In this document: positions 8,301-25,263 of the stretch, in pieces | How positions within the stretch are numbered: position 1 is the first letter of the stretch | How the letters are laid out: every line of letters begins with the position of its first letter | Source of the DNA: Acidobacteriaceae bacterium | GTDB taxonomy: Bacteria; Acidobacteriota; Terriglobia; Terriglobales; Acidobacteriaceae | Reading direction: 5' to 3' | Length of the DNA: 64,000 bases | NCBI GenBank assembly: GCA_003134815.1 | Contig: PLCO01000033.1 | Span: forward strand, 1 to 64,000 | The notes under the pieces: model-generated | Seen by the model: the letters and a program-made list of their open reading frames with translations, nothing else | What the model was told of the DNA's origin: nothing | Databases searched by the model: none | Position numbers and translations under genes: made by a program

Positions 8301-10409
8301 ATGTCGCGCCGGCGCGCCAGGTTGGTCATGATCAAGGTTGCCGTTTCAGGTGTTCTTGTCGCGCTTTGTTGTGCTGCTGCCGTTCAGGGGACGCCACAGG
8401 GCGCGCAATCAAGCGGCTCAACGCTGCAGAGCCTTTACGACACCGCTCAGCGATCCCAGAAAACTGGTGACCTGAGTGAGGCTGCGGGAAAGTACCGCGC
8501 ATTTCTTGCCAAAGCGGTTGATGAGCTGGCGAACAGCCATACACAAATTGGCGACTATGCACGGGCTTCCGCTCTATTCGACGAGGCTTTGGCACTGGAT
8601 TCCGACTCGCCGCAGCTGCAACGAGATTATGCGGCTGAGGCGTTGGAGGCCGGGGATCTGAAGCGCGCCGAAACGCTGGCTCGAGGGCTTTTGAATGACT
8701 CCTCGAGTGATTCGACAGGATTGGGGGAGGCCCACCAGATTCTTGGGCGCACGCTGCACAGGATGAACCGCGATCAGGAGGCGAGGAAGGAGCTTGAAAT
8801 GGCGGCCTCGCTCGATCCCAGCGTTGCAAACGAATACGACCTCGCGGTTGTATGTCTGGACCTTGACGACGAGAATTGCGCTGCGCAGATCTTCAGCGGG
8901 CTGGAAGCTTCACTCGGGGACAGCGCCGCACTCCATATGCAGTTTGGCTTAGCTTATGGGAATTCGGACTTTACGCCGCACGCGGTGACGGAGTTCAAGA
9001 AGGTAATTGCGGAAGATCCGCACTATCCTGGAGCGCACTACTCCGTGGCTGCGGCTCTGCTGGCGGCAGGCGAAGACGAGAAGACGCTGCAAGAGGCGGA
9101 GACGGAGCTTAAGCAGGAACTAGCCATCTCTCCGAATGATTTTCTGACCTATGCGGCGCTGGGCAAGATTGAAGCAAGTTATCACAGATATCCAGAAGCC
9201 GAGCGGTACCTGAAGCAAGCCGTCGTGCTGAATGCGAAGAATCCCGATGCCTTTCTTTATCTCGGACAGATGTACTTCGATACGAACCGGCTGACGGAGG
9301 CGGAAGCCGATCTTCACCAGGCCATCAAACTGACGACGGATATTTCGCGGAACCACTATCAAATTCAGAAGGCGCATTTTCTTCTTGGCAGAATTCTGAT
9401 GCAGCAGCATCACGAAGAGGAAGCGCACGCAGAGATGCAGATCGCGCACGCATTCGCGGACAAAGCGCTGTCGAAGGACAAGACCAAACTTGCCGGACTG
9501 CTCGACAATAAGCCTACGAGCGGTGAGAGCGCGGACTCCGGCCTGGACGCCGCAGCCATGGCTCCGGCCGCTCCTCACGCCGCCGATCCTTTGGCGGCCA
9601 GCAAGCAAAAGACATTCGAAAAGCAGCTTACGCCGGCTATCGCGGACAGCTACAACAATCTCGGCGCGATCATGGCCACGCAGACGAATTACGCGGAGGC
9701 ATTGAAATACTTCAAGCGGGCGGGGGAGTGGAGCCCATCTCTTGAAGGGCTGGACTACAATATGGGTCGAGCCGCGTTCATGGCGGCAGACTTCTCAGAA
9801 GCTGTCCCGCCGATTTCCCGCTATGTTCGGTCGCATCCGGGCGATTCGGGCCTCCGCGGTCCGCTGGCCATGAGCCAATTCATGACGCACAATTACCAAG
9901 GTTGCATCGAAGCTCTAAGAGGAGCCGGCGAAGGGACGAAGTCTATTCCGCAAATGCAATTCATCTACGCCGAGTCGCTGGTGAAGACCGGACAAGTCTC
10001 GCTGGGCAAAGCGCGCCTCGAGGGACTGGAAGCAGCGCATCCGGAGATTGCCGAGGTGCATCGCGGGCTGGGAGAAGTGTGGGTGCTTGAAGGCGACTGC
10101 CAAAAGGCCATCGACGAGTTGGACAAGTCCAACCAGCTCAATGGAGCCGATCCGGAAACGCACTACGTTCTTGGCAAGGCCGAGTTGCAGTGCGGAAGCA
10201 CATCGGTTGCGATTGTGGATCTGGAAAAAGCTGTGCGCCTGATGCCGGATGATGCAAGCTACCATCAGGAACTGGCCAGCGCATATGAGCGCGCGTTCAG
10301 GATGGCCGATGCGGAAAAGGAGCGCCGCATTGTTGAGCAGCTCAAGGCTTCACAGACGCCGGCCGTGAAAGCGGGAACGCCAACAGAGGACAAGAGCCCA
10401 AGTCGATAA
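8301..10409 (+). CDS. Exported tetratricopeptide-repeat protein
   Basis: 702 residues, nearly all TPR. A basic N-terminus and hydrophobic core (about 8-28, VMIKVAVSGVLVALCCAAAV) make a signal peptide; a cysteine pair in it leaves a lipoprotein possible but no clean lipobox is seen. About a dozen TPR-like repeats follow in two blocks separated by a low-complexity Ala/Pro linker near residues 400-440 (AAMAPAAPHAADPLAASK). Repeats show the usual W/Y-L-G-x-Y and A-x-P spacing, for example the segments around residues 445-480 (SYNNLGAIMATQTNYAEAL) and 610-640. The ATG at 8301 has GGAGG ten bases upstream; an internal ATG at 8328 is possible. It converges on the CRTAC1 gene with only 15 bases between stops. 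TPR proteins next to CRTAC1 genes recur in Acidobacteria; a scaffold role is inference. Confidence 0.8.
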   Translation: MSRRRARLVMIKVAVSGVLVALCCAAAVQGTPQGAQSSGSTLQSLYDTAQRSQKTGDLSEAAGKYRAFLAKAVDELANSHTQIGDYARASALFDEALALDSDSPQLQRDYAAEALEAGDLKRAETLARGLLNDSSSDSTGLGEAHQILGRTLHRMNRDQEARKELEMAASLDPSVANEYDLAVVCLDLDDENCAAQIFSGLEASLGDSAALHMQFGLAYGNSDFTPHAVTEFKKVIAEDPHYPGAHYSVAAALLAAGEDEKTLQEAETELKQELAISPNDFLTYAALGKIEASYHRYPEAERYLKQAVVLNAKNPDAFLYLGQMYFDTNRLTEAEADLHQAIKLTTDISRNHYQIQKAHFLLGRILMQQHHEEEAHAEMQIAHAFADKALSKDKTKLAGLLDNKPTSGESADSGLDAAAMAPAAPHAADPLAASKQKTFEKQLTPAIADSYNNLGAIMATQTNYAEALKYFKRAGEWSPSLEGLDYNMGRAAFMAADFSEAVPPISRYVRSHPGDSGLRGPLAMSQFMTHNYQGCIEALRGAGEGTKSIPQMQFIYAESLVKTGQVSLGKARLEGLEAAHPEIAEVHRGLGEVWVLEGDCQKAIDELDKSNQLNGADPETHYVLGKAELQCGSTSVAIVDLEKAVRLMPDDASYHQELASAYERAFRMADAEKERRIVEQLKASQTPAVKAGTPTEDKSPSR

Positions 10410-10424
10410 GCGCTCGATGTGAGA

Positions 10425-12230
10425 TCAGTGAACTGGTCCGGCGGGAGGTGTCTTCAGCTTGGGGCGGATCTCATCGGCGGGAACGATTCCGCGGCCCTCG
10501 AGCACTGCGTAAAACTGGTCCGCAGGCAGGCTGCCGATGCGGTCGACGGCTCCGGAAGGCCAGTGGATTTCGACGCTATCAACCTTCGTGGCCGAGCCGA
10601 GACCAAAGTGCAGGCGGAGATCGTTCTGCGAAAGATAGCTTCCTCCGCTGTGAACCTCGTCAGTTTGCGTCATTCCTCCGGCGACAACTTTGACACGAGC
10701 ATTTAGGGCGAGGCGATTCGACTTGGTTCCGGCGAGCTCGAAGCTGACCCAATGGCGTCCAGGAACACCATGATTTTTCAATAACATAGGGCTACCGTCG
10801 AGATTGTTGATCACAACGTCCATGTTGCCGTCGTTAAAGAGGTCCCCGACAGCGAGTCCACGGGAGACCTGCTTTTCTTCCAGGGCTGGCCCGGCCTGAT
10901 CGCTGGCATCGCAAAAGTTCCCGTCGCCCTGATTCATGCTGAGAACCTTTGGCTGGCGATAGCCCGGATCGGAGGGAATCAAGTCGGTTTGGGGATAGAC
11001 ATGCCCGTCAACGGCGATCAGATCGAGCCAGCCGTCGTTATCCAGATCGGCGAAAGCGGTGCCCCATTTGACCCAAGGCAAAGCCGCCATGGCGAGGCCG
11101 GAAGGAAAGGACACCTCGGAGAAATTCCAGTCTCCGTCGTTGCGATAAAGGTCAGGATTTTCGTTCTCAAAGTTCGCGACATAGAGGGAAGGGCGTCCGG
11201 TGTGGTTGTAGTCGCCGACGGCAATGCCCATCGACGCCTGCTCGGAGCCATCATTGCTGAGCGCAGTTCCAGACTCAAACCCGATCTCTTCGAATTTTCC
11301 AGTGCCCAGATTGCGGTAGAGAAACTTCGGCGTCGAGTCATTGGTGAGATAAATGTCGGGACGGCCCGTGTTGTTGAAGTCGGCCCAGATGACTCCGAGG
11401 CCGTAGTAGCCGTGGGGATCGTCCACTCCGGCCTGCTTGGAAACATCGGTAAAAGTTCCATCCCCGTTGTTATGGAAGAGGGAGTCGCCGGCGCCCTTCA
11501 ATCCGCGCGGACCGCACTGCACGGCAACGCCGCGGTACATGCAATAGGCCGAGCTACCAAATTGCGGCAGATCGTTGAGATGGAAGTCGACATAATTTGC
11601 CACCATGAGGTCGACGTAACCATCGCGGTCGTAGTCTCCAAAGGCCGCGCCGGCAGACCAGCGGCCGTCGGCCACGCCTGCTTTAGCGGTGACGTCGGTG
11701 AATGTGCCGTCGCCGTTGTTGTGATAGAGAATGTTTCCGCCGAGACAAGTGATGTACAGATCGGGCCAGCCATCGTTGTCGTAGTCGCCGACCGCGCCGC
11801 CCATCGCCAGGCACGGTTTAGTTAATCCTGCTTTCTGGGTTACGTCAGTAAACGTGCCGTCGTGATTGTTGTGATAGAGAACGCCTAAGCTCGTTTGCCC
11901 CGCCAGCGCCATATCGACGGTCGGCGCATTAGTGAAATAGATGTCGGGCCAGCCGTCGCGATCGTAGTCGAAGATGACCACGCCCCCGGTCATCGATTCG
12001 AAGATAAACTTCTTTTCCTTGGATGAAGTATGGGTAAAGGTGATTCCGGCTTTAGCGGTGATGTCCTCCAATTGCGGTATAGGGCGCTTCGTGCACTTGG
12101 TGAACTTGGCTCCAGGTGGAGGCGGCCCCGTCAAAGGATGCCCCATTCCCTGAGGATGAATCTGTCCAATTGCAAGGAACAGCGGAGCCAGTAGCACAAT
12201 CAGAGTCTTTAACAAGGACTGAACCGTCAT
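10425..12230 (-). CDS. CRTAC1-type FG-GAP/VCBS and ASPIC/UnbV repeat protein
   Basis: 601 residues. After a signal peptide (about 1-23, LLKTLIVLLAPLFLAIG) come roughly seven FG-GAP/VCBS blades, each carrying a calcium-binding DxDxDG-type loop such as FDYDRDGWPDIYF, GDYDNDGWPDLYI and GDYDRDGYVDLMVANY and the phrase LYHNNHDGTFTDVT. The last hundred residues form an ASPIC/UnbV domain (RLALNARVKVVAGG, SGGSYLSQNDLRLHFGLG, VEIHWPSGAVDRI). The fold is an integrin-alpha-like beta-propeller expected outside the cytoplasm. Vertebrate CRTAC1 is an extracellular matrix protein; the bacterial function is not established, and polysaccharide or protein binding is inference. It is a paralogue of the gene at 17281-19152. 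Confidence 0.85.
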   Translation of the reverse strand: MTVQSLLKTLIVLLAPLFLAIGQIHPQGMGHPLTGPPPPGAKFTKCTKRPIPQLEDITAKAGITFTHTSSKEKKFIFESMTGGVVIFDYDRDGWPDIYFTNAPTVDMALAGQTSLGVLYHNNHDGTFTDVTQKAGLTKPCLAMGGAVGDYDNDGWPDLYITCLGGNILYHNNGDGTFTDVTAKAGVADGRWSAGAAFGDYDRDGYVDLMVANYVDFHLNDLPQFGSSAYCMYRGVAVQCGPRGLKGAGDSLFHNNGDGTFTDVSKQAGVDDPHGYYGLGVIWADFNNTGRPDIYLTNDSTPKFLYRNLGTGKFEEIGFESGTALSNDGSEQASMGIAVGDYNHTGRPSLYVANFENENPDLYRNDGDWNFSEVSFPSGLAMAALPWVKWGTAFADLDNDGWLDLIAVDGHVYPQTDLIPSDPGYRQPKVLSMNQGDGNFCDASDQAGPALEEKQVSRGLAVGDLFNDGNMDVVINNLDGSPMLLKNHGVPGRHWVSFELAGTKSNRLALNARVKVVAGGMTQTDEVHSGGSYLSQNDLRLHFGLGSATKVDSVEIHWPSGAVDRIGSLPADQFYAVLEGRGIVPADEIRPKLKTPPAGPVH

Positions 12231-12391
12231 TCCTAAATTTTACCCGACAGCATTCGTGCCGGAGTCGCAGTTTCCGAGGCAGTTTCCGCTGGATTCGAAC
12301 GTGGGAAAAGGGCTGAGATCGCGTGGCTTAGACAGTCAAGTCCGCGGGGGATGCGCTATACTCCAGGGCAGTGCGAAACAGGAGGATCACA

Positions 12392-12913
12392 ATGCGTTTA
12401 CAGGCGATGGCTCGAGTTCTAGCGGGCGCGGCAATCATGGCCGCGCTGGGAGGGTCAGGCTGGGTGGCGGCGCAGTCCGGGGCGAATACCGTACTGCAAC
12501 CGGCCGACCTGGAAAAGCTGTTTCCGGCCACGGTGTTTTACAGTGGGCAGAGCGCGCCAACGCAATTGCGCAACTCCGGTGGCGTAAAGTTCGCCGACGG
12601 CCATTACGTGCTGGCCAGCCTGGTGGACACAAGCGGGTACTCGACGGGAGTGGCGGCGAAGTACCAGGGGTACCTGATCGCCGAAGTTCCGCTGAAGATT
12701 GAAGGGAAGCTTCTGCCTGCGGGCGCGTATGGCTTCGGCTTTCTGGATGGCGATCGGTTTGTGGTGACTGATCTGGGGGGGCATGACGTGCTTACGGCTC
12801 ACTCGGCGAAGGACGCTGACAAGAGCCGGCCCCGCCCCTTAGAGGTGACTGATGCTCCAGCCGGCGGCTACCGCCTTTATGCCGGGCGGAGCTACGTGCA
12901 CTTCAGCCGGTAA
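12392..12913 (+). CDS. Small secreted protein, first of a related pair bracketing a two-component system
   Basis: 173 residues with a clear signal peptide (ARVLAGAAIMAALGG, then WVAAQS). I do not recognise a named family. The mature part has a pattern shared with the protein at 16595-17128: G-H-(Y/F), then (S/A)GYS, KY-x-x-YLI, a P-(L/V)-x-I-x-G-x-x-L stretch and G-x-Y-x-FG, then a short beta-rich tail. The ATG at 12392 is chosen over GTG 12371 because AGGAGG lies seven bases upstream. It is 11 bases before the sensor kinase and the first gene of the four-gene operon. A periplasmic ligand-binding or signal-modulating role for the kinase is inference from position. Confidence 0.7.
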   Translation: MRLQAMARVLAGAAIMAALGGSGWVAAQSGANTVLQPADLEKLFPATVFYSGQSAPTQLRNSGGVKFADGHYVLASLVDTSGYSTGVAAKYQGYLIAEVPLKIEGKLLPAGAYGFGFLDGDRFVVTDLGGHDVLTAHSAKDADKSRPRPLEVTDAPAGGYRLYAGRSYVHFSR

Positions 12914-12924
12914 GGTGAAAGGCT

Positions 12925-15900
12925 GTGGGCTTGCGACAGCCGAATCCAAGCGACAAACGTCATCTGCGGGCTATCGCGAGCAGAAAGCTGCTCCCGAAAA
13001 TCATCTGGTATGCGGCCGCTCTGTTGCTTCTAACCGGGGCGGCGCATACTGCCGCGCTTGAGCCCTCCACACCGCTCGCCAATTATGGCAGGCAGGCATG
13101 GGCCATGGAGAATGGCCTGCCGCAAAATACTGTCCAGGCACTCGCACAAACCAAGGATGGATTCCTCTGGTTAGGCACGGAGGCCGGCTTAGTGCGCTTT
13201 GACGGCGTTGAATTCCAAACATACGATCGCAATTCCACTCCCGCATTGCCGGGCAGCGACATTCGCTGTTTGCTGGCAACCGCGGATGGGGCGCTTTGGA
13301 TTGGAACGAACGCGGGACTGGCGCGGTGGAAGGACGGAGCCGCGAAGACGTTCACGACGCAGGACGGGCTGCCGGCGGACGGGATCCTGACGCTGGGCGA
13401 AAAGGAGGACGGGAAGCTCTGGCTGTGGACCGAAAAAGGCATAGCCCTGCAGGCGGGAGACCGATTCGAGGCGGTGAGAACGGTGGACGCGTTTCCGCAC
13501 ACCACGCTTCCGTCGGCTGGAGAGTATCCAGAAGCGTCAGATGTATTTCTCGCGAAGATGCCAGACGGCGCGTCATTCTTGGGCAGTAGAAGACGTTTAG
13601 CTTCATATCGCCTCGGAATTGGTTCTCCGGGAGACTCAATCGACTTGGAAGTGGGCAAGGAGCTCCCGGGCAGCCGCATTCAAGCGGTTTTTGCCGACAG
13701 ACAGAACGCGCTTTGGATCGGCACAAACGCGGGGCTGGTGAGATGGGCCAAAGGCAACGTGGAGCGCTTTCCGATTACCGATCCTCTTTCGACGGCGTCA
13801 ATTCTCGCGGTGACGGAAGACCGCGAGGGCAATCTGTGGGTCGGGACAGAAACCGGCGGCCTGGATATTCTGCGCGATCAGCGATTCCGGACGATTGACG
13901 CGCGAGACGGGTTGACGTCCGACCGGGTGACGACGATTGTGGAAGACAGCACCGGGACGCTATGGGTGGGGACGCAGGAGGATGGATTGAATGCGCTGCG
14001 GCATGACCCAGGCTCGACCGGCTTGCTTGCCGTGCGCAGCCTTACGGTGAGCAACGGCCTTGCGAGCAACGTGATTCTGTCGCTGGCCGCGGCACCCAAC
14101 GGCGACTTGTGGGTGGGCACGCCGGATGGGATGAATCGGATTCGCGGAAACAAGGTGGACACCTTTACCTCAGCCGATGGGCTACCTGACGATTTTGTGC
14201 GCTCATTGTTGATCGACACCGACGGGTCACTTTGGATCGGCACCAGGCGCGGGTTGACGCACTGGGAAGTGGGTAAGATCGGGTTGAGTAAGTCAGGTTC
14301 CAGCGTGGGAATGGAAACCTACACGAAGGAGAACGGGTTGGGCAGCGATCTGGTGGGCGCAATGGCTCGCGACAGAAGGGGCGACCTGTGGGTGGCGACG
14401 CTGGCCGGGTTGTCGCGGCTGCACGGCAACACGATCTCCAACTTCACGGCTGCGGATGGGCTTTCGAGCAATGTGGTAACGGCACTGCTGCCGCGCGCGG
14501 ATGGGACACTCTTGATTGGGACGCAGGACCACGGTTGGGGCGTCTGGGATGGAAACAGATTCTCCATGGCGACGCAAAACGGAATGGCGCAGACGTCGAT
14601 TCACGCCATTTTGGACGATGGGACGAGGCACCTTTGGTTTGCGACGGGCGACGGCATTGCGCGCTGCGATTCGAGTGAGATGGGGGGAACAGGTTCGGCA
14701 GAGAGTTGTTCGCACTGGATGGAGTTTGGGACCGCAGACGGGCTGCAGAGCAGGGAGACGGCAACCAACAGCCATCCGTCGGCGTGGCGATCGCGCGACG
14801 GGCACTTGTGGTTCGCCACGCCCAAGGGGCTGGTGGAGGTGGACCCGACGCACTTTCCCGTGAACATGCTTCCGCCTCCCGTCGCCCTGGAGAGGCTTCA
14901 GGTGGACGATGTAACGCAGCCACTCAGTGGAGCGGACTCTCGGTTGAGAGTTGCGGCGGGTCGAGTTCATTTTGAGTTCGACTATGCCGGGTTGAGCTTT
15001 ATTGCGCCGCAAAAAGTGCGCTACCGCTACATGCTCGATGGTTTTGACCGCGGCTGGACCGATGCAGGAGCGAGACGCGCCGCCTATTACACGAATATTC
15101 CGCCGGGCCGGTACACGTTCCGCGTGCAAGCGGCGAATAACGATGGAATTTGGAGCACGACCGGCGCGGCGCTCAGCTTCGAGTTGCAGCCGCATTTTTA
15201 TCAGACCCTGTGGTTCTATGCGTTGTTGTTGTTGGCGCTGGCAGGGACGGTCTTGCTGGTGCTCAAGCGGAGATTGTACGTGGCAGAGCGCGAGTTCAAG
15301 GTGGTGCTGGGCGAGCGCAGCCGGATCGCACGCGAGATTCACGATACGCTGGCCCAGGGGTATGTGGGCGTTTCGGTCCAACTGGAGGTTCTGGCGGAGC
15401 TTTTGCGCCAGCGAAAGCTGGAGGATGCGGCCAAACAGCTCGACCAGTCACGCGACTATGTGCGCCACGGGCTGGCTGACGCGCGGCAGTCAATCTGGGC
15501 TTTACGCACACAGGATGCGAGCGAGACGACATTGCCAGTCAAGCTGCGGCGCTTGGCGGAAAGTGCCGGCGGCGATGGGCTGACGGCGCGGTTCAGCCTT
15601 TTCGGGGCTTATCGCCCGCTGCCTGCGGAAACCGAGCGCGAAGTAGCACGCATCGCCCAGGAAGCAATCCACAATGTGAAGAAGCACGCCGGGGCCAGTC
15701 AACTTTCGGTTCAATTGGAGTACCGATCGGAAGCGGTTACGCTCGAGATCAGTGACGATGGACGGGGAGGCGCAGTGGAGCGGAAGGCGGAGACTTCGCC
15801 GGGTCACTTTGGCCTGACTGGGATGCGAGAACGTGCAGCAGCGATCGGCGCGACGCTGGAAGCGAGCAGCGCACCGGGCGAGGGGACTACGATACGGTTG

Positions 15901-15951
15901 AATGTACCGGCGCGAAGTGAAGCGCGCGAACAGGCGGAGGTGAAGCAGTGA
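12925..15951 (+). CDS. Two-component sensor histidine kinase with periplasmic beta-propeller (Reg_prop) and Y_Y_Y domain
   Basis: 1008 residues. Domains in order: N-terminal signal/anchor helix (about 25-45); a periplasmic double propeller of eleven or more two-component-regulator propeller repeats (LWLGTEAGLVRF, LWIGTNAGLARW, LWVGTQEDGL, LWVGTPDGMNRI, LWFATPKGLVEV) to about 650; a Y_Y_Y domain (about 670-745; YRYMLDGFDRGWTDAG, YTFRVQAANNDGIW); a membrane helix near 760-782; a HisKA_3 dimerisation domain with phospho-acceptor His806 (REIHDTLAQG); and a HATPase (EAIHNVKKHA, ISDDGRGG, GHFGLTGMRERA). This is the hybrid-two-component-like sensor plan of Bacteroidetes but with a separate regulator. 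Start GTG follows AAGG; the 3' end overlaps the regulator gene by four bases. The ligand is unknown. Confidence 0.9.
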   Translation: MGLRQPNPSDKRHLRAIASRKLLPKIIWYAAALLLLTGAAHTAALEPSTPLANYGRQAWAMENGLPQNTVQALAQTKDGFLWLGTEAGLVRFDGVEFQTYDRNSTPALPGSDIRCLLATADGALWIGTNAGLARWKDGAAKTFTTQDGLPADGILTLGEKEDGKLWLWTEKGIALQAGDRFEAVRTVDAFPHTTLPSAGEYPEASDVFLAKMPDGASFLGSRRRLASYRLGIGSPGDSIDLEVGKELPGSRIQAVFADRQNALWIGTNAGLVRWAKGNVERFPITDPLSTASILAVTEDREGNLWVGTETGGLDILRDQRFRTIDARDGLTSDRVTTIVEDSTGTLWVGTQEDGLNALRHDPGSTGLLAVRSLTVSNGLASNVILSLAAAPNGDLWVGTPDGMNRIRGNKVDTFTSADGLPDDFVRSLLIDTDGSLWIGTRRGLTHWEVGKIGLSKSGSSVGMETYTKENGLGSDLVGAMARDRRGDLWVATLAGLSRLHGNTISNFTAADGLSSNVVTALLPRADGTLLIGTQDHGWGVWDGNRFSMATQNGMAQTSIHAILDDGTRHLWFATGDGIARCDSSEMGGTGSAESCSHWMEFGTADGLQSRETATNSHPSAWRSRDGHLWFATPKGLVEVDPTHFPVNMLPPPVALERLQVDDVTQPLSGADSRLRVAAGRVHFEFDYAGLSFIAPQKVRYRYMLDGFDRGWTDAGARRAAYYTNIPPGRYTFRVQAANNDGIWSTTGAALSFELQPHFYQTLWFYALLLLALAGTVLLVLKRRLYVAEREFKVVLGERSRIAREIHDTLAQGYVGVSVQLEVLAELLRQRKLEDAAKQLDQSRDYVRHGLADARQSIWALRTQDASETTLPVKLRRLAESAGGDGLTARFSLFGAYRPLPAETEREVARIAQEAIHNVKKHAGASQLSVQLEYRSEAVTLEISDDGRGGAVERKAETSPGHFGLTGMRERAAAIGATLEASSAPGEGTTIRLNVPARSEAREQAEVKQ

Positions 15952-16598
15952 CAACGGAATCGATCCGCGTGCTGGTTGTCGAAGACCACAACGTGGTTCG
16001 CCAGGGGCTGGTGGCGCTGCTGAATGTGGCGGGCGGCCTTGAGGTGGTCGGCGAGGCTGCGGATGGAGTTGAGGCAATCGCTCAGTTTCGCAAGCACCAG
16101 CCGGACATCACGCTGATCGACCTGCGGATGCCAAGGATGAGCGGCGTCGACGTCATCGAGCGCATCCGCATGGAGACGCCCCAGGCCCGGTTCATCGTGC
16201 TGACTACCTACGATGGCGATGAAGACATTTACCGCGCGTTAAAGGCCGGCGCACGGGCTTACCTGCTGAAGGGAATGACGAGCGAAGAACTGATCGGCGC
16301 GATTCGAGCGGTCCACGCAGGGAAGTCGCATATACCGCCGGCGATTGCCGAGAGGCTCGCCGAGCGCATGGGCTCACAGGATCTGACTCCGCGCGAGTTC
16401 GATGTGCTGGAGCAGATCGTATATGGCAAGAGCAATCGGGAGATCGCGGCCGAGCTGGAGGTTTCAGAAGCGACGGTAAAGACACATATCAACAGCCTGC
16501 TAAGCAAACTGGGCGTGACCGACCGTACGCAGGCGGCAACAGCCGCGATCCAACGGGGAATTGTTCCGCTCGAGTCGTTGAGAAAGCCGAAGCAATGA
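15948..16598 (+). CDS. NarL/FixJ-family response regulator
   Basis: 216 residues. The receiver domain (about 5-120) has the acidic pair ED in VVEDHNVVRQG, phosphorylation site Asp58 in ITLIDLRMPRMSG, a threonine in VLTTYDGD and lysine in YLLKGM. A LuxR-type helix-turn-helix occupies about 143-205 (LTPREFDVLEQIVYGKSNREIA, recognition helix VSEATVKTHINSLLSKLGV). It overlaps the kinase by GTGA and the next gene by ATGA, so translation of the three genes is coupled and it is the kinase's cognate regulator. Its target promoters are unknown; autoregulation of the operon is a reasonable guess. Confidence 0.93.
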   Translation: MTTESIRVLVVEDHNVVRQGLVALLNVAGGLEVVGEAADGVEAIAQFRKHQPDITLIDLRMPRMSGVDVIERIRMETPQARFIVLTTYDGDEDIYRALKAGARAYLLKGMTSEELIGAIRAVHAGKSHIPPAIAERLAERMGSQDLTPREFDVLEQIVYGKSNREIAAELEVSEATVKTHINSLLSKLGVTDRTQAATAAIQRGIVPLESLRKPKQ

Positions 16599-17128
16599 CG
16601 ATGAGAACCATGAGAAGCGCGATCGTGTGCGGGGTTTTTCTGCCTGTGCTGGCGCTCGCAGCGCAGGCGCAAAAGAGCGTGTGGCGGCAAGCTACAACGG
16701 CGGAGCTGGCATCGGTGCTGCCGTCGCGGGCGCCGGTCGAAAGCGAGCACATCGAGACGGAGATGCGGACGGCATCAGGGATTGTGGATGAGCACGGGCA
16801 CTTTATCGCAGGCGTGGTGCTGATTACGGCGGGCTATTCCGCAGAGGGCAAGTACTCGCACTACCTGATCGTGCAAGCGCCGGTAGTGATTGGCGGCGTT
16901 CGGCTGAAGCCGGGCGAGTATGCGTTTGGATGGAGCAGGGAAGACGGCGGAGATTTGCTGACCGTGCACTTCAACCAGGCGGCGACGGGAGCGCTGGTGG
17001 GGACCACGGATGCGCACAGGATCGCCGGGTCCAGCAGGGTGGAGAGTTTGCACATCTGGCCGCCGGGCGACAAGTCGCTGATCCAGATCGGGCGGTTTGG
17101 GATTCCTTATAAAGTGGGCGACCGATAG
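16595..17128 (+). CDS. Small secreted protein, second of the related pair in the two-component operon
   Basis: 177 residues with a signal peptide (SAIVCGVFLPVLALAAQAQ). It overlaps the response-regulator stop codon by ATGA, so it belongs to the same operon. The mature domain resembles that of the 12392-12913 protein: a GHF at the position of GHY, AGYS for SGYS, KYSHYLI for KYQGYLI, and GVRLKPGEYAFGW for GKLLPAGAYGFGF. After that the two diverge. No named family or catalytic motif is recognised. Two diverged copies of one secreted fold flanking a periplasmic-propeller sensor suggest accessory ligands, decoys or sensor partners, which is inference. A readout such as gene-specific expression would be needed to separate these. 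Confidence 0.7.
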   Translation: MTMRTMRSAIVCGVFLPVLALAAQAQKSVWRQATTAELASVLPSRAPVESEHIETEMRTASGIVDEHGHFIAGVVLITAGYSAEGKYSHYLIVQAPVVIGGVRLKPGEYAFGWSREDGGDLLTVHFNQAATGALVGTTDAHRIAGSSRVESLHIWPPGDKSLIQIGRFGIPYKVGDR

Positions 17129-17280
17129 AGGAGGGTTGAGAGGCTCCTCACGGGAGTTTGCGAGCCGTCCAAGAGTTATTGCAAGTGGTTTTTATAAGGA
17201 GTTTTTCCCGATCCGGCTCAGCGGCGCACTCCAACTTTTGGTCGATACTTCCCTCGATCCCGCCCCGTATACTTGCTTCC

Positions 17281-19152
17281 ATGTTCGAGTTTCTGCGCAA
17301 TGCCACTCTCTGCGGATTACTGGCGGGGGGGATTCCCGCGTTGGTTTTCGCGCAAGTTACAAATTCTGCCACTCTTCCCTCGGGGCAACAACCCCAACCA
17401 ACTTCCGCGCCCGCCCAAACTCCGTCGCCGGGCGGCATCAGCAGCGGCGCTCCGCCACCGGCCCAGTTCGATGAGCAGCACCGGCCGATCACTGCGGGTG
17501 ACTTTGTGAAAAGCGGGCCGGTGATCTTTGAGGACATATCGGAGAAGGCCGCACTGACTCATTGGACCCACAAGATGGGGACCAAGGAGAAGAAGTACAT
17601 TATCGAGACCAAAGGCGGGGGCATTGGCCTGATCGACTACGACAACGACGGCTGGCTCGACATTTATGTAGTGAACGGCTCGACCTTCGACGCGCTGGAT
17701 GGCAAGGAGACGCCGCCCCACGCGGCGCTGTTCCATAACAATCACGACGGAACCTTTACGGATGTGGCAGCCAAGGCCGGCGTGACGAACGACCGATGGG
17801 GCATCGGCGTGGCCATCGCGGATTATGACAACGACGGCTGGCCGGATATCTACGTGACCAACTGGGGCAAGAACCGCCTGTATCACAACAACCACGACGG
17901 AACGTTTACCGATGTTGCGGAAAAAGCGGGCGTGCAGTTAGGGAATTGGTCGAGTGGCGCCACGTGGGGAGACTATGACGGCGACGGACGCCTGGATTTG
18001 TTTGTTCCGGGCTACGTTCATTTCGACCGCGACCATTTGCCCTCAGGCGGTGAGAATGGTGTCCCCGATACCTTCTGTACCTTCCGCGGAGTGGGAGTGA
18101 TTTGCGGACCAAGAGGGCTCAAGGGTGAGCCAGACCATTTATTCCACAACAACGGCGACGGAACATTTACCGATGTGAGCGAAAAGGCGGGCGTGGCCGA
18201 CAAAGCCGGCTACTACGGGCTCGCCTCACTGTTCGTGGACCTGAATAATGACGGCAAGGTGGATCTGCTGGTGGCCAACGACTCCACGCCAAACTATCTC
18301 TACATCAACAAAGGGGACGGGACGTTTGAGGACGACAGCTACTCGTCGGGTTACGCGCTGGACGAGGCCGGGCGAGAGACTGCGTCGATGGGCATCGCGG
18401 CGGGGGATTTTGAAAACAACGGCAACGAGGACATCTTTAACACGACTTTCTCCGACGACTACAAAGTGCTCTACCGCAATGACGGCGACGCGAACATGAC
18501 GGATGTGAGCTACCAGATGGGCATCGCCGAGATTTCGGTGCCGTTTCTCGGATGGGGCGATGCGTTCCTGGACTATGACAACGACGGGTGGAAGGATTTG
18601 ATGATGGCCGACGGGCACGTTTATCCGCAGGTGGATCAGCACCCGTGGGGGACGAGTTGGGCGGAGCGGCCGATGCTCTTCCACAACATGGGCGGCAAGA
18701 AGTTCGAGGCGGTGCCGGCCGTCGAGGGTTCCGGACTTGCGGACGTTATCGCCGGGCGAGGGATGGCAGAGGGCGATCTCTTTAACGACGGGAAGCTGGA
18801 TGTTGTGATCAACGTGATGGACGGCCACCCAGTGCTTCTGCGTAATGTATCGCCAGATAAGAATCACTGGTTGGAAATGAAGCTGGTGGGAGGGCCGAAG
18901 AGCCCGCGCGACGCGGTGGGGGCCACTGTGTATTTGACGGCCAACAGCATGAGGCAACGCGAAGACGTGCTGAGCGGCGGCAGCTACGCTTCAACCAACG
19001 ATCCAAGACCGCATTTCGGGCTGGGGCAGGCGACCAAAGTCGACGACATCGAAGTGCACTGGCCGAGCGGCAAGGTGGAGCACTTCACCGTTCCGGGGGT
19101 AGATCGCATCGTGACGATCGAAGAGGGGCACGGGGAGGGGTCGGGGAAATAG
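17281..19152 (+). CDS. CRTAC1-type FG-GAP/VCBS and ASPIC/UnbV repeat protein (second copy)
   Basis: 623 residues from the ATG at 17281, which begins a signal peptide (MFEFLRNATLCGLLAGGIPALVFAQ); the open frame from 17158 upstream is not protein-like. A Pro/Gln-rich linker (about 30-60) precedes seven or so FG-GAP blades with calcium loops (IDYDNDGWLDIYVVNG, ADYDNDGWPDIYVTNWG, GDYDGDGRLDLFVPGY) and the phrase LFHNNHDGTFTDVA. The C-terminal ASPIC/UnbV domain is at about 520-615 (SGGSYASTNDPRPHFGLGQ; VEIHWPSGKVEHF-type motif, here IEVHWPSGKVEHF). No ribosome binding site is visible; a TATACT hexamer ends eight bases before the ATG, so the mRNA may be nearly leaderless. It is a paralogue of the 10425-12230 protein. 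Confidence 0.87.
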   Translation: MFEFLRNATLCGLLAGGIPALVFAQVTNSATLPSGQQPQPTSAPAQTPSPGGISSGAPPPAQFDEQHRPITAGDFVKSGPVIFEDISEKAALTHWTHKMGTKEKKYIIETKGGGIGLIDYDNDGWLDIYVVNGSTFDALDGKETPPHAALFHNNHDGTFTDVAAKAGVTNDRWGIGVAIADYDNDGWPDIYVTNWGKNRLYHNNHDGTFTDVAEKAGVQLGNWSSGATWGDYDGDGRLDLFVPGYVHFDRDHLPSGGENGVPDTFCTFRGVGVICGPRGLKGEPDHLFHNNGDGTFTDVSEKAGVADKAGYYGLASLFVDLNNDGKVDLLVANDSTPNYLYINKGDGTFEDDSYSSGYALDEAGRETASMGIAAGDFENNGNEDIFNTTFSDDYKVLYRNDGDANMTDVSYQMGIAEISVPFLGWGDAFLDYDNDGWKDLMMADGHVYPQVDQHPWGTSWAERPMLFHNMGGKKFEAVPAVEGSGLADVIAGRGMAEGDLFNDGKLDVVINVMDGHPVLLRNVSPDKNHWLEMKLVGGPKSPRDAVGATVYLTANSMRQREDVLSGGSYASTNDPRPHFGLGQATKVDDIEVHWPSGKVEHFTVPGVDRIVTIEEGHGEGSGK

Positions 19153-19154
19153 CA

Positions 19155-19202
19155 AGAGAGGTTCCCGGTCAAGATGTTTCTGGTAAGGGAACCTCTCTTT
19201 TT
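19155..19202 (+). terminator. Rho-independent terminator between convergent genes
   Basis: A perfect 12-bp stem (AGAGAGGTTCCC at 19155-19166 with 19187-19198), a 20-base loop and a short T run. It follows the CRTAC1 stop by a few bases. The A-rich left side is weak, so it probably terminates mainly the plus-strand gene, although the receptor gene on the other strand ends 50 bases further on. Confidence 0.8.
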
Positions 19203-19251: not shown

Positions 19252-22200
19252 CTAGAACGAGAGGCGCGCGCTTAATTGAATCTCGCGTCCCGGCGTTGTG
19301 ACCTCAGTGATACTGCCGAAGTTGGCCGTGTTCACGAAGCGGTTGGGTGTTCCAAGGTTGGTGTGATTGAAAGCGTTGAAGAACTCGGCGCGAGCTTCGA
19401 ATCTGGTCTTCTCAGCAAGATTGAAACTGCGGTCCAACGCCAGGTCCATTGTTTGCATTCCGGGGCCATACACTGTGTTGCGGCCGACGTTGCCATATGT
19501 ATAGGCAGGCGGCGCGACGAATGCGTTGGGGTTGAACCATGTGGTCGCGTTCCGGGTGCCCGATGGGAAGATCTTCTGGCCGGTGACATCGGCTCGAATG
19601 GGGTTCTCTCCGACCACGGTTCCGGCATTGGCCGTGTCGCCGAAGACGGAGATGGTCATGGGGAAGCCAGTCTGGACCTGATAGACGAGCGAGCCGAGCC
19701 AGTTGCGGGTGAGTTCCTGAACCAGGAGGTTGGCGCCGACTGCCGATGACGCGTAAATGGCGCTCACGGAGACGCGCTGACGGACATCGCAGCCTGGGCC
19801 CTTCTCTGCATTCAGGTTGTTGTCGTTCTGCGGAATGGCGGCCTCGAACATCGGCGAGCGAAAGTCTGGCGCGTTATCGAGTTCTTTGGCGAAGGTATAG
19901 TTGGCCAGAAAACTGAGGCCGTGTGCGTAGCGGTGCCGAACGTTGACGTAGCCCGCGTCATACCAGCTCTGCGCGGAGTTTTCGAGCAGGTTGATGGTAC
20001 TTAAAGGAGTGAGGTGATCCGTGTTGAACGTGGGGCCCACGGCAACCGTGGACGGGAGAGTGGTGTTGTTTACGAAGCTAACCTTGGGGAACGGCCGCCG
20101 CGGCTGTATCAGGCCGGCCCCGGGCAGCGCATTGTTGATGAGATGCGCGCGCTGTAAGTGGAATCCTCCGGCGCCGAGGTAACCGATCTCGACGGTCGTT
20201 TCAGATCCCAACTGCTTTTCGAGCGATACGCTCCATTGCTGGATGTACTGCGGCGGCGCGTGCAGTTGGAGGGCAGTGAAGCTGGTTACAGTTGTGCCGA
20301 TCACAGGCGAAGGGAAGTTGAGCGAGGTGATCGAGGGAATATAGGGATCGCTCTGCGAGGTCTGGGGGAAGACAAGAGGAACGTTGTGGCGCTGGTTGCA
20401 CCAGGTGTTCATGTCGACCGGAGTGTAGAAGATGCCGTAGGCGATGTGCGCCACAAGGCCCAATCGCGGAATGCTCTGCGCCAGTCCCAGGCGTGGCGCG
20501 AACCTCAGGTGGTTGGCATACATCAGGCCGGCCGGATAGCCGTCCTGACCGCCGATGAAGATCTGGGGCACGCCGTTGGTGATTGCGAGGTTGCTGTTGG
20601 TGTAGTCGATATCGACGAGCGGGCTCATGAACTCATAGCGGAGGCCGTAGGTCAGCGTGGTCGAATTGGTGAGGCGCCAGGCATCTTCCGCGAAGCCGTC
20701 GGCATTCCACTGGCGCAGTTGCATCTTGGGAATGGCGGTGGTCTGCGCCTGGCGGACCGCGGGCAACCCTAGCAGGAAACTGGCGAGGGACGATCCCGTG
20801 GCGCCGTCGTTGAGCGCGTATTGGGTGGTATAGCCGTTGGTGTATTGGTAATAGCCGCGCGATTGCACGAAGGCCAACATCGGCCAGATAAATTTCTGAT
20901 ACACGCCGCCGAATTTGGCGCTGTGGCGGCCCACCTGCCAGTTCAGCGAGTCCCGGCCCTCGGCAAGAGTGTCCCACACTGCCATGGGAGTCGCGAGCCA
21001 GTTGTCGCCAAAGGGCGAATATCCCTGCACGTTGAAGTAAGGTGCGCCCCATTGCTGCGGGTAGCCGACCAGGCCCGTGATGCCGAGCTGGGAGACGATG
21101 TCGTTCTTGTAGGCGCTTTCCGTCGTATGCGTCATGGCCAGACGGGAAAGAGCCAGTGAGGCCAGGTTGACCATGTGCGGCGAGAAAATGTGGGTCCAGG
21201 CCAGGACGCCTTGCTGTGCGAAGTTGTCGTGATTGAAGCCGAAGCCGGGTAGCCCCTGCGGCATAAATCCGTATTCGCTTCCCAGCGAGTAGCGAACGAA
21301 GGCAGTATCGCCGTTGGCGAAGCTGTGATCGACGCGCGCCGTACCCTGGTCGTCGGTCATGCGTTCCTTCAGTGTCTCAAGATAATTGTTCGCGTCGTTG
21401 CCCGCGCCGACCACGGTGGGCTGGCCCATCATGGTCATGCCCCCCATATTCATCGTGTTGGGCAGCGGAGTGTATTTGTTCAGCATGGTCAACGCAGCGA
21501 TCGAGCCTGGCTGGGTTAGCCGGCTGGGCGGAATCACGTTCAGCACTCCGTTGTAGGAAAACTGCTGGCGGATGTTCTGCGGATTCGAAGGGCTCGGCGG
21601 CAAGCTGGGATTGTAGCTGGGGTTTGCCGTTGTGGTATTCGGGTCGTAGATGTTCACGCCGCTCTGGCTGAAATCGCCGGAGTCTTCGGCGGCGGTCGGC
21701 ACCGTGTCGACCATGGTGTCATCTTCAACATGGCGCAGAGCTTCATAGTTTATGAAGAAGAAAGTTTTGCCAGTGAGCTTCATGGGGCCGCCGAGCGAAG
21801 CGCCGAAGTTGTTCTGTACCAGAAAATTCGAACCGCCCATCTGATTGAATGAGTGAGCGTCCATGTCGCCGTTGCGCAGGTACTCGTAAGCAGCGCCGTG
21901 GAAATGGCTCGATCCGGAGCGCGTGACGATGTTGATCTGGCCGCCGCCGGCGCCGCCCATCTCGGCCGAATAGCTTCCGGTCTCGACCTCGAATTCCTGC
22001 ACCGCATCCGGCGAGGGGCTCAGATTCTGGGTGTTGAAGGTCGGGTCAGTGTTGGTGGCCCCGTCCAGCAGAAAGTAATTCGCGTTGGGGCGGCTTCCGC
22101 CGATGCTCACCGCCGAGCGTTGGCCGGGCCGCCAGTAAAGAGCATTCATGTCGCCAGTTGCGGCGCCGTGACTCATGTGAGATCCAGGCACGGTGAGGAC

Positions 22201-22659
22201 CAGGTCAATCAACATACGGCCGTTCAAAGGGAGTGAATCGACCGAGTGCTGATCCACTACTTCGCCCACGCTGGCGTCCTGGGTTTTGAGCAATTCGCCC
22301 GAGGCCTGAACTGTAACACTCTGTTTTTCGGAACCAAGGCTCAATTGCCAGTCGAGTGTGGCCTGCTGGCCCACCTCGAGGTTTACCGATTGGGTGGCTT
22401 GCTTGAATCCGGGATTGTCAACGGTGAGCGTGTATGCGCCCGGCTCCAGGCCCGCGATCTGATAAAGTCCGGTCTCATTGGACACAGCCTCGCGCGTGGC
22501 CCCGGTTCTGCGGCTCAAAACGTGGATCTGCGCTCCTGCAATCGCGCGGTGCTGCGGATCGAGAATCGATCCGCTCACGACGGCGTAATTGCTCTGGGCT
22601 TGAACGGCAAATACAGCCGCGAACAGGCAGGCGAAAATCGGGAAAATCTTTCTGGTCAT
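19252..22659 (-). CDS. Oar-type TonB-dependent outer-membrane receptor with carboxypeptidase regulatory-like domain (second copy)
   Basis: 1135 residues. Signal peptide about 1-21 (IFPIFACLFAAVFAVQAQ); carboxypeptidase-regulatory-like domain about 28-105 (YAVVSGSILDPQHRAIAGAQ; GLYQIAGLEPGAYTLTVDNPGF); plug domain about 110-270 (SLPLNGRMLIDLVLTVPG, YFLLDGATNTDP, GGGQINIVTRSGS); then a long barrel ending QLSARLSF. The plug motifs are closer to canonical Oar-like receptors than those of the first copy, and it is shorter. ATG 22659 is preferred to the in-frame GTG 22665 because AAGGAG lies six bases upstream of it. It is transcribed divergently from the multiheme cytochrome gene. It lacks the AAATCGGTTT array seen upstream of the first receptor, so the two copies are likely regulated differently. 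Confidence 0.88.
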   Translation of the reverse strand: MTRKIFPIFACLFAAVFAVQAQSNYAVVSGSILDPQHRAIAGAQIHVLSRRTGATREAVSNETGLYQIAGLEPGAYTLTVDNPGFKQATQSVNLEVGQQATLDWQLSLGSEKQSVTVQASGELLKTQDASVGEVVDQHSVDSLPLNGRMLIDLVLTVPGSHMSHGAATGDMNALYWRPGQRSAVSIGGSRPNANYFLLDGATNTDPTFNTQNLSPSPDAVQEFEVETGSYSAEMGGAGGGQINIVTRSGSSHFHGAAYEYLRNGDMDAHSFNQMGGSNFLVQNNFGASLGGPMKLTGKTFFFINYEALRHVEDDTMVDTVPTAAEDSGDFSQSGVNIYDPNTTTANPSYNPSLPPSPSNPQNIRQQFSYNGVLNVIPPSRLTQPGSIAALTMLNKYTPLPNTMNMGGMTMMGQPTVVGAGNDANNYLETLKERMTDDQGTARVDHSFANGDTAFVRYSLGSEYGFMPQGLPGFGFNHDNFAQQGVLAWTHIFSPHMVNLASLALSRLAMTHTTESAYKNDIVSQLGITGLVGYPQQWGAPYFNVQGYSPFGDNWLATPMAVWDTLAEGRDSLNWQVGRHSAKFGGVYQKFIWPMLAFVQSRGYYQYTNGYTTQYALNDGATGSSLASFLLGLPAVRQAQTTAIPKMQLRQWNADGFAEDAWRLTNSTTLTYGLRYEFMSPLVDIDYTNSNLAITNGVPQIFIGGQDGYPAGLMYANHLRFAPRLGLAQSIPRLGLVAHIAYGIFYTPVDMNTWCNQRHNVPLVFPQTSQSDPYIPSITSLNFPSPVIGTTVTSFTALQLHAPPQYIQQWSVSLEKQLGSETTVEIGYLGAGGFHLQRAHLINNALPGAGLIQPRRPFPKVSFVNNTTLPSTVAVGPTFNTDHLTPLSTINLLENSAQSWYDAGYVNVRHRYAHGLSFLANYTFAKELDNAPDFRSPMFEAAIPQNDNNLNAEKGPGCDVRQRVSVSAIYASSAVGANLLVQELTRNWLGSLVYQVQTGFPMTISVFGDTANAGTVVGENPIRADVTGQKIFPSGTRNATTWFNPNAFVAPPAYTYGNVGRNTVYGPGMQTMDLALDRSFNLAEKTRFEARAEFFNAFNHTNLGTPNRFVNTANFGSITEVTTPGREIQLSARLSF

Positions 22660-23037
22660 TGGCACTCCTTGGGGGCTCTCCTTAGGGTTGTGGTCATCCG
22701 CCGGATGTGTGCGAGTCGTTTCCGGCCGGACATCGATTCATTGCGCGCAAGGCTCTCGCGTCTTGTGCGTGCGCTGTCGTTGTCAAAAGCAGTTTCAAAA
22801 TGCTGTGGCGCAGGGAAAAGCGGCGGCCGAGCTGTGCTCAGCGCCTAAAAGACCGCTAACTCCAACCAAAATCAGGGGAAGCACTCGATTGGCGTACAGT
22901 TCATCATTAATGACAGATCGTCGTTTGTCTTCGTCTTATAGGAGGATTGCCAGGTCATCCTTTTGGTGGAGGGCGGCCCTATTCCGCTCAAGGGCGGATG
23001 CGGGGTTCGATGGAAAGCTTATAGAATTGCTAGCGGG
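22660..23037. other. Divergent promoter region between receptor and cytochrome genes
   Basis: 378 bases between two divergently transcribed starts. The frame of the cytochrome gene is open back to 22963 but reads without family character there. The sequence includes a moderately AT-rich stretch around 22860-22950. I see no near-consensus promoter, terminator or clear repeat, and no ORF with protein-like sequence. Confidence 0.45.
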
Positions 23038-25263
23038 ATGCTTCCCCAATTTTTCGCTTTTCGAAGTTTGCGCATTCTCAGCATAGTTCTGCTGATGGGC
23101 GTGGTTGTCTGCGCTTTGATGGGGTGGCGAACCCCGGCGGCCCATGCGACGGACGATGCAGCTACCCAGCGATCGCAATACTCGCAGAGCATCGCTTCGC
23201 ATTACAACTTCCGGTTCGGAGCGGATCAGCCCTTTCTTCCTTCCAACGCCACCACCGACACGGGAGAGTTCATCGATCCTCAAAGCTTTCCCACGGCAAA
23301 GTACTGCGGCCATTGCCATCAGGCGGCGTATGCCCAATGGCGCCAGTCGGCACATGCGAATTCATTCCGCGCTCCCTGGTACGTGAAGAATGTGAATCTG
23401 CTGATTAAGGGAAAAGGGATTGAGTATGCCCGCCATTGCGAAGGGTGCCACAATCCCATCGCGCTGACTTCCGGCGCGATGACGCAGAATTCTCCGGTGA
23501 ACAGGAAGTTTGACGGGGACGGCATCACTTGCTCGGTTTGCCATTCTATCCAGAAGGTGGATGCGCGCGGGACTGGAAGTTACATAATAGGCGCGCCCGC
23601 GGTGCTGGTAGATGCCGACGGAAAGCCGATCTACGGCGAAGTTTCAGACAAGGAGATCCTGGCGCATCTCGATCGTCATTCCCAAGCTGTGATGAAAGAT
23701 TTCTATCGCAGTAGCGAGTTTTGCGGCGCGTGCCACAAGGCTGCGTTGCCCAAAATGCTGAATGGCTACAAGTGGCAGCGCGCATTCTTTCTTTCCGACG
23801 AGTGGCAGCAGGCTTCATTCGCGAAGCAGTCGCCGCTCCCCTTCTATGTAAAACCGCAGGTATCCACGTGCCAAACCTGCCACATGGCAGAGGAAGATAT
23901 CGAACAGCCAGACTATGGAGCGCAGACGGGCAAGCTGATGTCGCACCGCTGGCTGGGCGCCAATACAGTGCTATCGAAGTATTACGGCTACGATGAGCAA
24001 CTGCAAAAGACCATCGCCTTTCTGCAGAACGGAGTTCTCAACGTCGATCTCTTCGGAATTGAGCGCAATGGAGGCAAACCGATCGCGCCTCTCGGAGCCG
24101 AACCCTTTGACATTGCTGCTGGAGACGTTTTGACAGTTTCGGTGGTGATCCAAAACAAGGGAATCGGCCACACTCTAGTTCCCGAACAGCGCGACTTTTA
24201 CGAATGCTGGGTTGAGTTCCAGGCCAAGGATGCGGCGGGCAACATTTTGATGGACTCCGGCGCGGTTGGGCCGGACGGTTCGCTCGATCCGACTGCGCAC
24301 AGCTTCACCAATCGGCTGGTGAATGTCCGCGGCACGCTGAACGATCTGCATCAGGTGTGGGACACGCGGGTGATTGCCTATAACAACACCATTCAGTCGG
24401 GCCGCTCGCAGATTGTTCGCTACCAATTCAAGGTCCCGGAAAATGCAACCGGGCCGATTACGATTACGGCCAAGGTCAACTATCGGCGCTTCAACCAGCA
24501 CTTCATCGATTTCGGCATGGGAAAGCACTACGACATGCCCGAAGTGGAGATGACATCGCGCACGCGGAGTCTGGTGCTTGGCTCCAATCCTGCGACGCCG
24601 CCCGATCCTGCGGACAATCCTGCGTGGATGCGATGGAACAACTACGGCATTGGATTGCTGGACGCGCAGCAGTATGCGGAGAGTGCGCGGGCCTTCGAAC
24701 AGGTGATTCAGTTGCGACCGGATTATGCCGATGCCTACACTAATGTCGCCATCGCGGATTTTTCGTGGCAACGCTATGATGATTCGCGAGCCAATCTGGA
24801 TAAGGCGCTGAAACTCTCGCCGCACAATGCTCGCGCGCTGTACTATTTGGCGCTTGTAGAGCGCATTCAGGGGCATCCCGATGCCGCGATCGCTGATTTA
24901 CTCGACGTGATTACGCAGTTCCCGCGCTCGCGTGACGCTCATCGGGAGCTGGGTTTCTCGTTCTATCAGCAGCATAAATATCAAGAGGCTCGAACCGAGT
25001 ACGAGACCGTGCAGTCGATTGATCCCGATGACCTGTCCGCCCATTACATTCTTTCGATCGTCTATCGCCGACTGGGGATGAAAGAAGACGCTGCGCGCGA
25101 AGCCGTAGTCTTTGCCGATCAGAAGGACGATCCGACGGCGAATAGCTATGCGCTCGAGTTCCTCAACAAGCATCCCGAGGTGACATCGGAGAGCGTACCC
25201 TGGCATATTCATAGCAATGTGACTTCAGATGGCAATGCTCATGCCGGCGGGACTGGTCAATGA
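23038..25263 (+). CDS. Pentaheme c-type cytochrome (cytochrome c554-like) with C-terminal TPR domain
   Basis: 741 residues from ATG 23038. A signal/anchor helix spans about 11-30. Five CXXCH heme sites are visible: CGHCH (90-94), CEGCH (134-138), CSVCH (165-169), CGACH (229-233) and CQTCH (278-282), in a layout like cytochrome c554/NapC-type multiheme domains, with additional histidines (SAHANSF, MSHRW) that could be distal ligands. A beta-rich region follows (about 360-520), then four or five TPRs (about 535-690: NNYGIGLLDAQQYAESARAF, LGFSFYQQHKYQEARTEYE). It would act in the periplasm as an electron carrier or oxidoreductase; the substrate is not evident. Its stop overlaps the small cytochrome gene by ATGA, so both are made together. 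TPR fused to multiheme domains is known but not common. Confidence 0.85.
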   Translation: MLPQFFAFRSLRILSIVLLMGVVVCALMGWRTPAAHATDDAATQRSQYSQSIASHYNFRFGADQPFLPSNATTDTGEFIDPQSFPTAKYCGHCHQAAYAQWRQSAHANSFRAPWYVKNVNLLIKGKGIEYARHCEGCHNPIALTSGAMTQNSPVNRKFDGDGITCSVCHSIQKVDARGTGSYIIGAPAVLVDADGKPIYGEVSDKEILAHLDRHSQAVMKDFYRSSEFCGACHKAALPKMLNGYKWQRAFFLSDEWQQASFAKQSPLPFYVKPQVSTCQTCHMAEEDIEQPDYGAQTGKLMSHRWLGANTVLSKYYGYDEQLQKTIAFLQNGVLNVDLFGIERNGGKPIAPLGAEPFDIAAGDVLTVSVVIQNKGIGHTLVPEQRDFYECWVEFQAKDAAGNILMDSGAVGPDGSLDPTAHSFTNRLVNVRGTLNDLHQVWDTRVIAYNNTIQSGRSQIVRYQFKVPENATGPITITAKVNYRRFNQHFIDFGMGKHYDMPEVEMTSRTRSLVLGSNPATPPDPADNPAWMRWNNYGIGLLDAQQYAESARAFEQVIQLRPDYADAYTNVAIADFSWQRYDDSRANLDKALKLSPHNARALYYLALVERIQGHPDAAIADLLDVITQFPRSRDAHRELGFSFYQQHKYQEARTEYETVQSIDPDDLSAHYILSIVYRRLGMKEDAAREAVVFADQKDDPTANSYALEFLNKHPEVTSESVPWHIHSNVTSDGNAHAGGTGQ

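Follow-up and report, generated by a model that had tools for sequence, protein, structure and literature searches.

A secreted protein family with one branch genetically linked to a propeller-type two-component system in Acidobacteriota

The window analysed here is a stretch of 64,000 nucleotides from an Acidobacteriaceae bacterium (contig PLCO01000033.1, forward strand), and the subject of this study is an operon in its region 12392-17128, composed of four open reading frames (ORFs) on the same strand: a secreted protein (A), a sensor histidine kinase, a response regulator and a second secreted protein (B). A (12392..12913, + strand, 173 residues) has an ATG start behind AGGAGG and a signal peptide recognized by eye. 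It is followed by the kinase (12925..15951, + strand, 1008 residues, GTG start), by a NarL/LuxR-type response regulator (15948..16598, + strand, 216 residues) with the Pfam domains Response_reg and GerE, and by B (16595..17128, + strand, 177 residues), whose signal peptide was likewise recognized by eye. The tight packing reported in the first-pass annotation is borne out by the ORFs at these coordinates: there is an 11-base gap between A and the kinase, a GTGA junction between the kinase and the regulator, and an ATGA junction (i.e., a 4-base overlap) between the regulator and B.

The domains of the kinase all score above the Pfam cut-offs: Reg_prop with 175.9 bits over nine stretches, Y_Y_Y with 69.3, HisKA_3 with 57.4 and HATPase_c with 45.1. 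This composition fits a Reg_prop two-component sensor, with Reg_prop repeats and then Y_Y_Y outside, a transmembrane segment (assigned by eye) and the kinase core inside. Pfam finds no Response_reg domain in the kinase, which is thus not a hybrid of the Bacteroides hybrid two-component system (HTCS) type, the regulator being a separate gene. The intergenic region 12231..12391, located between divergent genes, carries GCGCTATACTCCAG ahead of A and is the likely, though putative, operon promoter. The GCGCTATACTCCAG element is identical in the window and in loci L034-L037, and differs in L038. The upstream regions of the operon and of its neighbours were read by eye only, and no common regulator-binding motif was seen in them.

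A and B present 31% identity over 100 residues, with a BLASTP E-value of 3e-13 for the pair. When A is used as query in the window's own genome (G000), it recovers itself, B (E = 7e-9) and one other row at E = 2.4. The motifs [SA]GYS, KYxxYLI and GxYxFG, which had been proposed in the first-pass annotation as a diverged pattern common to both proteins, are largely kept in 26 aligned family members. A set of 82 distinct members was taken from loci longer than 3.7 kb, requiring at least 20 bits and at least 110 residues and merging identical copies. Their tree divides them into an A clade of 38 and a B clade of 44 proteins, with a split support of 100/100 (the tree is unrooted and its bootstrap not fully settled). 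The profile comparison suggested earlier as a check on whether A and B form one family gives a positive answer: the 38-protein and 44-protein profiles match with a probability of 98.7 and E = 1.6e-16 over 133 columns. Neither protein has a Pfam match at the cut-off or any match in NCBIfam, and scanning 27 members of A3 and 26 of A2 returned three single-member rows, with E between 0.0032 and 0.098, that point to no common family. Regarding a phage or defence origin, A and B have no PADLOC match, and PHROGs yields one chance-level row for A (E 0.39). Judged from their sequences, A and B are homologous and form a single secreted family for which there is no existing family model.

The structure predictions, also proposed as a check in the first-pass annotation, are confident for both proteins. 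AlphaFold2 produced models with a predicted local distance difference test (pLDDT) of 90.0 and a predicted template modelling score (pTM) of 0.86 for B, and with a pLDDT of 86.5 and a pTM of 0.83 for A. Both are single, mostly-beta domains with a near-identical order of elements, i.e., one early short helix followed by beta strands. In Foldseek searches against the PDB, none of the 297 matches for B and none of the 238 for A reached E ≤ 1e-3. The best VIA results are 4ae8 for B (Z 3.7, root-mean-square deviation 3.8, 100 residues aligned) and 4fr9 for A (Z 4.3, root-mean-square deviation 3.8, 92 residues aligned), both too low for naming a fold. The absence of a PDB match for these predicted models does not establish a new fold, and lipocalin, BLIP-like and other beta folds are neither matched nor ruled out by them.

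DUF2911 (PF11138) was considered as a possible relative. No match above the Pfam gathering score was obtained in A, in B, in the 27 members of A3 or in the 26 of A2, while hhalign gives probabilities of 61% for A and 80% for B, with a local block IGGxxLPAGxY. The real scores (32.7 for A and 37.1 for B) compare with 16.0 and 16.6 for reversed controls and with best column-shuffled values of 17.4 and 25.1. Block-shuffled controls reach 33.6 for A and 31.3 for B and, because they score that high, the resemblance is mainly one motif block. Among PDB sequences there are no DUF2911 relatives, the best hit being an influenza haemagglutinin (E 0.27), taken as chance. Kinship of A and B with DUF2911 is unproven.

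The two clades differ in their conserved residues, numbered here from window base 12473. In the A clade R33, N34, D52, G55, Y56, G84, G89, D114, P122, Y136 and G138 are invariant (38/38). All 44 B proteins retain R33, G55, Y56, G84, G89 and G138, and all 44 have lost N34 (T in 43 and S in one) and D52 (replaced by I or L). At position 114, around which the alignment is gappy, B has I or L in 29 of the 44 proteins, D in one and other residues in 14. Position 122 is S in 39 and P in three, and position 136 is Q in 41. B has constant positions of its own, namely W5, E29, E31, Q69 and P132. The simplest inference is that a polar site maintained in A was given up by B, which gained other constraints, in line with what a paralogue converted to a protein-binding partner would show. 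The loss of A's polar residues could also be compatible with a decoy or scaffold role for B, and the wider spread of A hints that A may be the ancestral form.

Related loci were collected from GTDB genomes, sampling 200 genomes of the window's class and 297 of its phylum. Scanning the genome contigs for B yielded 20 loci, in each of which B is preceded, on its own strand, by the kinase and the regulator. Among the loci with kinase, regulator and B is L052, from Terracidiphilus gabretensis, a soil bacterium available in culture. The four-gene order, with A upstream of the kinase, is present in only five of these 20 loci (L034-L038), all close relatives of the window, the contig being too short to judge A upstream in L047 and possibly in L051. 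Conservation of gene order, another check put forward in the first-pass annotation, is thus found for kinase, regulator and B, and includes A in those five loci only. Considering the family as a whole, a kinase or regulator lies at most 6 kb away in 41 of the 44 B-clade loci versus 8 of the 38 A-clade loci. The B loci without an adjoining pair are L065 (in G191), L104 (a second copy in G207) and L107 (in G278). In G191 and G278 a close kinase-regulator pair is present elsewhere in the genome. The eight A loci near a kinase comprise the six of the window clade plus L111 and L175, from two genomes of another genus, in which A and the kinase are transcribed divergently. Six loci of genus g3 (L054-L059) have A within the cluster, at a distance of 8-10 kb from the kinase, other genomes of this genus (e.g., G139, G187 and G191) have it elsewhere, and L064, L066, L070 and L073 carry A without the pair. 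The distance between regulator and B, computed with a mechanical choice of start, is -4 in 32 of the 44 loci and between -68 and +14 in 40, with 1066 in one (L106) and no value in three. Linkage of B to the pair also extends outside the class, in G207 and G458. The linkage is therefore asymmetric: B is widely tied to the pair, and A only in a small clade. B constitutes a distinct clade, linked to the regulator and in most loci coupled to it in translation.

Two observations concern individual loci of this set. In G191, whose B is at L065, the kinase at L167 reads as two ORFs (7437-8675 and 8672-10594) with a 4-base overlap, which may represent a split kinase or a frameshift. Locus L039 (PLKS01000004.1) is labelled Opitutaceae (Verrucomicrobiota), and its B groups with Acidobacteriaceae, which may reflect a mislabelled or mixed bin, or a transfer.

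Co-occurrence was assessed with thresholds of E ≤ 1e-40 for a strong B, E ≤ 1e-70 for a close regulator and E ≤ 1.3e-40 for an A-type protein. A strong B is present in 22 of the 200 class genomes and a close regulator in 23, i.e., the same 22 plus G108, in which the kinase adjoining the regulator is 30% identical and no B match was found at E ≤ 0.001. A-type proteins are present in 66 of the 200 genomes, 47 of which have no strong B match. Three of the 22 B genomes are without A (G033, G123 and G151): they contain kinase, regulator and B, and the A profile matched only via B. The window's family f1, with 41 genomes, has both proteins in 19, A only in four, B only in three and neither in 15. 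In the phylum sample, with 13 candidates scored per genome, 28 of the 297 genomes match the combined profile. Matches to that profile outside the class occur in nine genomes, three of them with a B-type protein (G207, G278 and G458). Reg_prop kinases can be numerous, with up to 12 ectodomain matches per genome in Acidobacteriota; in the window's genome the ectodomain query matches two kinases, and there is one B only. The earlier picture of a secreted pair that brackets, and is tied to, one sensor thus survives in part: the family is duplicated and the tie of B is firm and widespread (41/44), whereas A is tied in a small clade only (8/38 loci), and most A genomes (47/66) are without a strong B.

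The operon is flanked by genes that recur in relatives. Upstream, a CRTAC1-like protein with FG-GAP_3 and UnbV_ASPIC domains (CRTAC1-601; 10425..12230, - strand, 601 residues) is divergent from A, next to a TPR protein (8301..10409, + strand, 702 residues). Downstream of B there is a second CRTAC1-like protein with the same domains (CRTAC1-664; 17158..19152, + strand, true start probably about 17281), a TonB-receptor-like outer-membrane beta-barrel with OMP_b-brl_4 and CarboxypepD_reg (19252..22665, - strand, 1137 residues), a multihaem cytochrome (Cytochrome_C554) fused to TPR (22963..25263, + strand, 766 residues) and a small c-type cytochrome (25260..25604, + strand, 114 residues). Within 20 kb of B, as far as each locus reaches (the loci differ in length), relatives of CRTAC1-664, counted at 550 bits or more, are found in 26 of the 44 loci, the multihaem cytochrome in 17, the small cytochrome in 16, A in 15, CRTAC1-601 in 11 and the barrel in three. 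Across window positions 17158-25604, it is CRTAC1-664, the multihaem cytochrome-TPR protein and the small cytochrome c that recur by B in several genera. Outside the class, related kinase-regulator pairs are also near barrels, the pair of G376 is near CRTAC1 genes, and G268 has CRTAC1 genes about 20 kb from its related pair on the same contig. Given this recurrence near B and near related pairs, the regulon is probably the CRTAC1/multihaem-cytochrome/TonB-receptor-like module, for which no described function was found in the literature searched. A itself adjoins CRTAC1 genes in L108-L110. In a set of 12 genomes, 7 have a CRTAC1 gene no more than about 10 kb from A; the set was picked after several linked loci had been seen, and this is hence no unbiased rate.

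Further features were observed in these loci and in the rest of the window. A 438-residue carboxymuconolactone decarboxylase (CMD) family protein lies beside the kinase-free B copies (L104 6501-7817 and L107 6366-7682), with a TBDR1137-like barrel on the opposite side. In L180 (8788-16896) and L182 (5786-9724), pairs of TPR702-like and CRTAC1-601-like genes (two in G268 and one in G376) stand beside barrels, an arrangement that resembles a carbohydrate-use locus, with ROK-type regulators recognized by eye near these gene pairs. The window also contains exopolysaccharide-type genes at 26935-35817 (a sugar transferase with a glycosyltransferase, Polysacc_synt with a methyltransferase, and a Wzz/AAA_31 protein) and, at 51550-57570, a 2006-residue protein with He_PIG and Flg_new_2 (InlB B-repeat) domains.

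We tentatively propose, at close to an even chance, that kinase, regulator and B form a propeller-type two-component system in which B serves as a dedicated accessory subunit outside the cytoplasm. B would be exported and made in proportion to the regulator, and would bind the propeller/Y_Y_Y ectodomain of the kinase, setting its signalling state. The signal detected by the kinase would come from the envelope or from nutrients; a saccharide is plausible, given the relationship of the ectodomain to BT4663, a sensor of heparin and heparan sulphate. In turn, the adjacent CRTAC1, TonB-receptor-like and multihaem-cytochrome genes would be controlled by the LuxR-type regulator. A, the wider paralogue, keeps the polar set lost in B; what it binds is therefore probably a ligand or a protein of the CRTAC1 type, and A would have come under the same promoter in the window clade.

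Several points weigh against the subunit proposal. Shared operon and shared presence would suit a plain co-regulated effector, too. The co-occurrence counts come from related genomes and not from independent events, and the regulator count of 23 was obtained with 15 candidates scored per genome in the 200 class genomes. The second B of G207 has no pair beside it. Moreover, related pairs (kinase 39-40% and regulator 62-63% identical) are present in G268 and G376, which belong to a different family outside the class, and a direct B search in both, with all candidates scored, returned only A-type matches and no B; therefore, B is not indispensable for kinases of this type. These related pairs without B also speak for the main rival, namely that B simply belongs to the output: it would be a secreted or envelope protein that is transcribed together with the regulator and used in the CRTAC1/cytochrome/TonB module without a sensing role. 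The kinase-free copies in L104 and L107, lying between a TBDR1137-like barrel (25% identity) and the CMD-family protein, point the same way. Yet B is near the pair in 41 of the 44 loci, compared with 26 for CRTAC1-664 and 17 for the cytochrome (in loci of differing length), and we regard this explanation as rather unlikely, though a serious contender.

Periplasmic ligand-binding proteins such as ChvE, LuxP and TorT present a small molecule to a kinase, and B could in the same manner present one (e.g., an oligosaccharide) to the propeller. In favour of this, B is a secreted single domain linked to a kinase whose ectodomain is related to BT4663; however, a ligand would most likely sit at A's invariant polar positions, and these are occupied by other residues in B. 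The fold searches, which named no fold, weigh neither way here, and we regard such a role as improbable. The loss of the polar set would suit an opposed pair, in which a site-less B and A, alone or with its ligand, compete for the kinase, which reads their ratio. The co-occurrence of A and B in family f1 (19 of 41 genomes) is consistent with this, as are the separate arrangements that bring A near kinase and B (upstream on the same strand in the window clade, divergent in L111 and L175, and 8-10 kb away in L054-L059). Nevertheless, no A was found in G033, G123 and G151, which retain kinase, regulator and B; a distance of at most 6 kb between A and the pair is seen in no more than 8 of the 38 A loci; and in further g3 genomes the two are far apart (e.g., L064, L066, L070 and L073). 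We consider an opposed pair slightly more doubtful still. Returning to B as a subunit, a bolder version, which we regard as a long shot, is that the family split into a form A with the polar set and a form B without it, that B became a lasting third subunit of the kinase, and that the kinase senses free or loaded A (or a CRTAC1 partner) by competition with B. If true, this would be a self/decoy read-out at the Acidobacteriota cell envelope. A conserved co-transcribed secreted family is a handle on the signal and output of a propeller kinase, and A with versus B without the invariant polar set offers a clear evolutionary contrast for experiments.

In comparison with known systems, the closest PDB relatives of the kinase ectodomain by sequence are 4a2l (the first), 3v9f and 3ott, i.e., propeller sensors of the Bacteroides type, and the PDB title of 4a2l names BT4663 and heparin and heparan sulphate sensing. 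The window kinase thus has a propeller ectodomain family in common, by sequence, with these Reg_prop/Y_Y_Y sensors. In contrast, 4a2l and 3v9f are named kinase/response-regulator hybrids, while the window has a HisKA_3 kinase, a separate LuxR-type regulator and, in addition, B. Among NCBIfam models, MadS, MctS, LiaS, NarQ and NarX match the kinase core and NarL is best for the regulator, all far below the curated cut-offs. From NarL-family systems with HisKA_3 kinases (MadS, NarQ, NarX), the window kinase differs by its ectodomain and by the extra gene B. No description of an extracytoplasmic partner of a Reg_prop kinase, or of the A/B family, was found in the literature searched, most subscription journals being outside its scope. 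Regarding separate exported components, QseG is reported to bind QseE directly and to activate it (PMC12691602), and both CpxP and QseG act on their kinases (PMC4160245, PMC12691602 and PMC8534201). What is shared with CpxA-CpxP and QseE-QseG is an exported protein, separate from the kinase, that serves it; for B the genetic tie is present, export is read by eye, and binding is putative. Unlike QseG, which is an outer-membrane lipoprotein, A and B show no lipobox by eye; and, in contrast with both systems, the window kinase has a Reg_prop/Y_Y_Y ectodomain, and A and B are without a Pfam model. In sum, the arrangement, a two-component system with an extra exported component, is of a known kind, and the protein family that serves it is new.

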